Of a stretch of 64,000 nucleotides of DNA, positions 56,127-56,523 are shown in pieces (positions within the stretch are counted from its first letter, which is position 1; each line of letters opens with the position of its first letter). Under the pieces are notes generated by a model, which saw nothing but the letters and a program-made list of their open reading frames with translations, was not told the origin of the DNA and searched no databases. The position numbers and the translations under genes are program-made. The stretch comes from Geobacteraceae bacterium (GTDB taxonomy: Bacteria > Desulfobacterota > Desulfuromonadia > Geobacterales > Pseudopelobacteraceae), in NCBI GenBank assembly GCA_025355965.1, contig JANXYR010000016.1, positions 1 to 64,000 of the forward strand, given 5' to 3'.

Positions 56127-56173
56127 TTATATTGATATATATGGTTTTATAGATACTTCAAAGGAGTGTTGCC

Positions 56174-56461
56174 ATGAAGATTACTAATGCAGCGAAGACG
56201 GCTTTGGAGCCGATTCTGGCCCAAAACCCCGGCAAGGTGTTGAGGGTGGTGTTTGAAGGTTTTGGTTGAGGCGGCCCCCGTCTGGGGTTGGCTCTGGATG
56301 AGCCGAACGAAAATGATAACAGGTTTAATTTGAGCGGTATTGAGCTGCTTGTTGAAGAAAAGCTGAACCCATTTCTGGAAGGGCAGATGATAGACTTTGT
56401 AAACTTCGGTTATGGGGAAGATTTTGTAATTTCTCCGGAGGGTGGCTCTTCCTGCGCTTAA
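56174..56461 (+). CDS. HesB/IscA-like selenoprotein (UGA at 56267-56269 read as selenocysteine)
   Basis: The reading frame starts at ATG 56174 with AAGGAG seven bases upstream. It runs 95 residues to TAA 56459-56461, interrupted only by an in-frame TGA at codon 32. Read through, it gives MKITNAAKTALEPIL…VLRVVFEGFGUGGPRLGLALDEP…, ending GGSSCA. The position after GFG in HesB/IscA-like proteins is normally Cys, and HesB-like selenoproteins with U at this place are known from Geobacter relatives. Conserved sequence continues after the TGA without a frame change, and a bacterial SECIS-like hairpin follows at the right distance. The family binds or delivers Fe-S clusters. A terminator follows at 56492. 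Confidence 0.9.
56287..56308 (+). promoter_or_regulatory. Bacterial SECIS element (predicted)
   Basis: GUU-GGCUC (56287-56294) pairs with GAGCC-G-AAC (56300-56308, one bulged G), closing a loop UGGAU (56295-56299). The loop starts 25 nt after the UGA, within the 16-37 nt range used for bacterial SECIS searches, and its second base is G. An alternative hairpin GGCCCC/GGGGUU lies closer to the UGA (loop CGUCU) but is nearer than usual. Confidence 0.65.
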
Positions 56462-56491: not shown

Positions 56492-56523
56492 ACGGGGAAG
56501 TCGGATGCGGTCTCCCCGTTTTA
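56492..56523 (+). terminator. Rho-independent terminator of the selenoprotein gene
   Basis: The arms ACGGGGA (56492-56498) and TCCCCGT (56513-56519) form a 7-bp stem followed by TTTT, 30 bp after the TAA. The selenoprotein thus has its own single-gene transcript. Confidence 0.8.

Follow-up and report, generated by a model that had tools for sequence, protein, structure and literature searches.

A small gene interrupted by an in-frame UGA in a stretch of Geobacteraceae DNA most probably encodes a functional HesB-like selenoprotein. The whole stretch analysed, 64,000 nucleotides long, is called the window here, and comparison with related sequences gives this reading a probability of about 0.95–0.97. 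The UGA is almost certainly read through, because the UGA and a hairpin on its 3' side are conserved in relatives and the insertion machinery is present in the genome. SelB and the Sec-tRNA would bind the hairpin 3' of the UGA, selenocysteine (Sec) would be inserted at residue 32 without termination, and the product would be a protein of 95 residues with the IscA/HesB fold. Sec32 and the tail cysteine, Cys94, may then form a redox or metal/Fe-S-handling site, like the cysteines of IscA. The coordinates are listed in Table 1.

Table 1. Features of the gene and its surroundings, in window positions.
Feature	Position	Strand	Description
Ribosome binding site AAGGAG	56161..56166	+	From sequence; a similar site lies 5' of the start in the close relatives displayed
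HesB-like selenoprotein gene (most probable reading)	56174..56461	+	95 codons, then TAA; frame conserved in relatives
In-frame UGA, predicted Sec32	56267..56269	+	Same alignment position as the internal Cys in IscA-type proteins
SECIS hairpin (from comparison)	56288..56306	+	Core stem GGCUC/GAGCC, 56290-56294 with 56300-56304; loop UGGAU, 56295-56299
Cys94 codon, tail cysteine	56453..56455	+	Column 94 near-invariant, at least 90% of 25 rows
Possible terminator hairpin, then UUU	56492..56522	+	RNAfold; absent from the list of the consensus scanner

Translation of the frame with UGA as Sec gave a protein of 95 residues with Sec at residue 32. An earlier reading made from the letters alone (the sequence-only reading) had described a 95-codon frame whose sole interruption was the UGA at 56267, and a peptide, GFG-U-GGPRLGLALDEP, continuous across it. 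Both were reproduced by the translation. The spacing between AAGGAG and the ATG is 7 nt by a count made by eye. The terminator of the sequence-only reading was retained in part. Its hairpin folds in RNAfold, with the main stem pairing 56492-56498 with 56513-56519 before UUU, and it is rated only as possible because it is missing from the output of the consensus scanner. The adjoining gene is presumably helicase-like. A neighbour of this kind recurs at L041, L075, and L076, and different neighbours are found at L040, L042–L045, L077, and L078 (neighbours were inspected at 10 of the 14 listed loci). Since the neighbours vary among loci, no function was derived from the gene context.

The core stem of the hairpin begins 20 nt 3' of the UGA. 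The core covers 56290-56304 and two outer pairs extend it to 56288-56306. A SECIS-like hairpin had been proposed at 56287-56308; the element is real, with pairs conserved in the Sec forms, and its extent was corrected. As expected of a bacterial SECIS, the apical loop 3' of the UGA (UGGAU) carries G. Sec and Cys forms of the gene were counted twice. The first count, made with a motif pattern that missed rows, comprised distinct stretches of 90 bases, 81 from Sec and 26 from Cys forms, and the exact hairpin was present in 78 and 0 of them, respectively. A profile-based recount used distinct stretches of 42 bases, 92 from Sec and 33 from Cys forms, with the exact hairpin in 76 and 0; one Sec row, with N or too short, was excluded before the pairs were counted, leaving 91. 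Of the 91 distinct Sec forms, 90 have all five core pairs, versus 2 of the 33 Cys forms, and the loop UGGAY is found in 91/91 versus 13/33, in a sample that is non-random (Sec rows are mainly best matches, Cys rows were sought deliberately) and whose rows are related, the counts not being independent events. A compensatory change from C-G to U-A, with both sides altered, occurs in three Sec forms, and G-U pairs preserve the stem in others. One core pair is broken in one relative (L028). Codon usage is in keeping with the hairpin. Where Ala is the encoded residue, the codon is GCT in 80/80 Sec forms compared with 6/24 Cys forms in the first, smaller count, and GCT makes up 23% of the Ala codons in six neighbouring genes of the window.

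Folding with RNAfold depended on the stretch supplied. For the 48 nt from the UGA, the best structure was not the SECIS, at –18.2 kcal/mol versus –18.1 kcal/mol with the SECIS enforced. The probability of the SECIS core pairs was about 0.04 in a 64-nt stretch and 0.997 once the first 15 nt were omitted; these 15 nt are roughly the part covered by the ribosome. Set side by side, the 91 Sec and 33 Cys forms, a comparison contributed by this study, indicate that the hairpin behaves as a SECIS and is kept almost solely where the UGA exists.

The predicted protein matches the family profile with an E value of 1.6e-16. The UxGP motif given for HesB-like selenoproteins in one review (PMC13188914) is present as U-G-G-P at residues 32–35. 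The IscA/HesB models are matched, yet for each model listed the score falls short of the curated threshold, for example 60.4 for NF038090 (cut-off 85), 34.4 for TIGR01911 (66.35), and 25.3 for Pfam PF01521 (26.3). None of the 141 genomes of the order exceeds the NF038090 cut-off. All 25 rows of alignment A1 match both NF038090 and TIGR01911 at E ≤ 0.001, and the missed cut-offs of these two models are a matter of model threshold rather than a biological feature. The protein thus shares with the HesB-like selenoprotein family (TIGR01911 HesB_rel_seleno; NF038090 IscA_HesB_Se) the IscA/HesB fold, Sec in UxGP, and a SECIS after the UGA, and differs in belonging to a subclade beneath both NCBI selenoprotein cut-offs. 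Standard annotation may therefore overlook the gene. The tail of this subclade is short and has one Cys, whereas HesB-like relatives such as L051 and L057 have Cys-rich tails.

The AlphaFold model has a mean pLDDT of 86.4, and its IscA-like fold is confident except for the tail. Its best PDB match is E. coli IscA (1r94), with a TM score of 0.81. Profile alignments place Sec32 opposite the GCSG cysteine of E. coli IscA (1s98), and likewise opposite the internal cysteines of AQ_1857 and HI1723. In both AQ_1857 and HI1723, a tail Cys corresponds to Cys94; the alignment with E. coli IscA ends before the tail. The A-type Fe-S carriers IscA, SufA, and ErpA therefore have the same fold and the same internal cysteine position. 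They differ in that the window protein carries Sec in place of the internal Cys and a single tail Cys, and it lies far under the IscA, SufA, and ErpA equivalog cut-offs. IscA has three conserved cysteines, one internal and a fixed pair at the C-terminus, which act as metal or Fe-S ligands. Only Sec32 and Cys94 are found at such positions in the window protein.

By analogy with IscA, we tentatively favour a redox or Fe-S-handling site formed by Sec32 and Cys94 as the function. The alignment of Sec32 with the internal cysteines and the near-invariance of Cys94 support such a site, in which Cys94 may work together with Sec32. The tail containing Cys94 has a pLDDT below 50 in the model, so the contact between the two residues is putative only. 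It is also possible, at rather less than even odds, that the selenoprotein uses the IscA fold as a selenium store or as a peroxidase- or reductase-like enzyme and does not handle Fe-S. The tail varies by subclade from one Cys to Cys-rich, unlike the fixed pair of IscA. Besides, for Methanococcus maripaludis the role is reported as unclear, and an unpublished observation is cited in which a mutant with the gene disrupted remained able to fix nitrogen (PMC11097638). Against this stands the placement of Sec at the Cys position of IscA-type proteins.

The identity of the residue inserted at the UGA was considered next to the selenocysteine machinery. Three genes of the same genome score above their curated cut-offs: selA with 600 bits, selB with 364 bits over the frame, and selD with 384 bits. 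Two tRNA-Sec genes were found by the Rfam model and ARAGORN. A search for selA, selB, selC, and selD, suggested by the sequence-only reading, thus found the complete set. That reading had also held that the gene would prove a working Sec system. The gene alone is insufficient for such a claim; the sel genes and a second candidate Sec gene add support to it. The tRNA-Sec was detected in 59 of the 76 genomes of the bacterial family. Of the 18 genomes that carry the gene, 16 are among these; the two misses (G130 and G133) are assemblies of 79% and 73% completeness. The downstream frame is evidently translated, and the DNA letters are silent on which residue is inserted, so the UGA might instead be decoded as Cys or Trp, or be passed by near-cognate suppression. 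This is very improbable and was rejected on account of the full sel set and a hairpin that is specific to the TGA forms and shows compensatory change. Also, the HesB-like protein of M. maripaludis was reportedly identified as a selenoprotein by mutagenesis and 75Se labelling (PMC11097638).

A protein search found the gene in 18 of the 141 genomes of the order, inside two of 29 genera, and no match in the other 123; no Cys form was found among the 141. All 18 carriers have TGA at the same codon. The copy is full length in 17 of them, and that of G133 is broken by assembly Ns. The sequence-only reading had taken Cys to be usual for the family, which does not apply near the window, where every copy found in the order has TGA. 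Cys forms occur in more distant groups, often adjoining a Sec copy. None of the homologues inspected ends at the UGA, the outcome that would have spoken against read-through. Scanning named genomes turned up 30 loci across several phyla, most of them with TGA at the Sec codon. Sampling across the phylum gave profile matches at E ≤ 1e-12 in 204 of 395 genomes, Cys-only genomes among them; of the matches listed, the majority carry a single TGA. The earlier description of the family as small is therefore outdated. In one genome, a fragment (L037, G127:C45:5912-5995) matches only residues 63–90 of the protein, with the Sec position outside it; it is possibly a decayed second copy.

Downstream of the UGA, dN is less than dS in all eight pairwise comparisons between the window and close relatives, with ratios of about 0.09–0.42. 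Upstream of it, dN is also less than dS against these eight relatives. The comparisons indicate that selection at the protein level persists 3' of the UGA. Such selection speaks against a pseudogene or a sequencing error, in which a Cys codon would have mutated to TGA and the frame would be decaying. A one-base change does turn TGT or TGC into TGA, and the draft assembly consists of 86 contigs. Nevertheless, the 18 carriers come from separate assemblies and have the same TGA, and the hairpin is kept in the TGA forms and not in the Cys forms. With the common TGA and the conserved hairpin, this explanation was rejected as highly improbable.

A frame bridged by a single UGA is weak evidence on its own. 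The window contains 52 comparable frames, each made of two parts, of at least 20 and at least 50 codons, that a single TGA links into a total of at least 95. For this reason, evidence must come from relatives, and it is the conservation in relatives that, on the sequences compared, makes the 56174-56461 frame real. A meaningless chance frame, for which these 52 frames would speak, can be practically disregarded given the profile match, the homologues in several phyla, and the IscA fold.

The sequence-only reading had called the family a known one, and the literature bears this out. HesB-like selenoproteins were already in print by 2005–2006 (PMC1242214, PMC1794560). Eleven members were given in 2006, with Geobacter sulfurreducens and Desulfuromonas acetoxidans among the organisms (PMC1794560). 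They also appear in PMC1914089 and are covered in reviews (PMC9312934, PMC13188914). Since the family is published and its Methanococcus member has been labelled, the window gene belongs to an already known family. This study adds a well-supported selenoprotein gene and points to a subclade lying below the thresholds of the curated models.

In distant relatives, Sec and Cys copies stand in tandem on one strand at 20 loci (L048, L050, L052–L056, L059–L061, L096, L105, L130, L133, L135–L139, and L143), 58–177 bp apart, the distances varying with the start codons chosen. At least five further loci with both forms (L128, L129, L134, L140, and L144) lie outside the 20 measured. One Mailhella-like group supplies nine of the 20, and the pairs therefore represent fewer than 20 independent events. 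The Sec/Cys label changes seven times on a tree, and at least five changes are forced by well-supported branches; the tree was built from the first count alone, 107 rows, with few columns, several long branches, and unsure single forks. The tree indicates that the tandem pairs arose repeatedly, several times. Such pairs are absent from the titles and abstract openings of the literature matches listed, although they may still be published, and the only "tandem" in the available part of PMC9312934 is in a reference on another protein. The repeated pairs give a starting point for working out what the family does biochemically. HesB-like selenoproteins might be one half of a Sec/Cys couple, with the single-copy form of the window acting alone through Sec32 and Cys94. 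We regard this as unlikely; if true, it would be consistent with a hetero-oligomer of the Sec and Cys forms or with a switch that responds to selenium.

The same genome also contains a candidate selenopeptide cassette adjoining selA. On contig C50, a 102-codon frame (L073:4281-4589) has two in-frame UGAs, both within SGUGG, and we take it to be SbtA-like. The radical SAM gene 3' of it matches SbtM (TIGR04082, 688.7 bits, cut-off 350), and the two genes make up the cassette. Nothing relevant to this selenopeptide system was found among the literature matches listed. SbtM is present in 21 of the 76 genomes of the bacterial family. The two tRNA-Sec genes (L010:1497-1594 and L011:1501-1598, contigs C28 and C50) differ from each other. 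They are identical at 88 of 102 aligned positions, and paired changes were seen by eye in the acceptor and anticodon stems. One adjoins selB and the other lies directly 3' of sbtM. More than one tRNA-Sec is found in seven of the 76 genomes, and in G080 the only tRNA-Sec found likewise adjoins sbtM.
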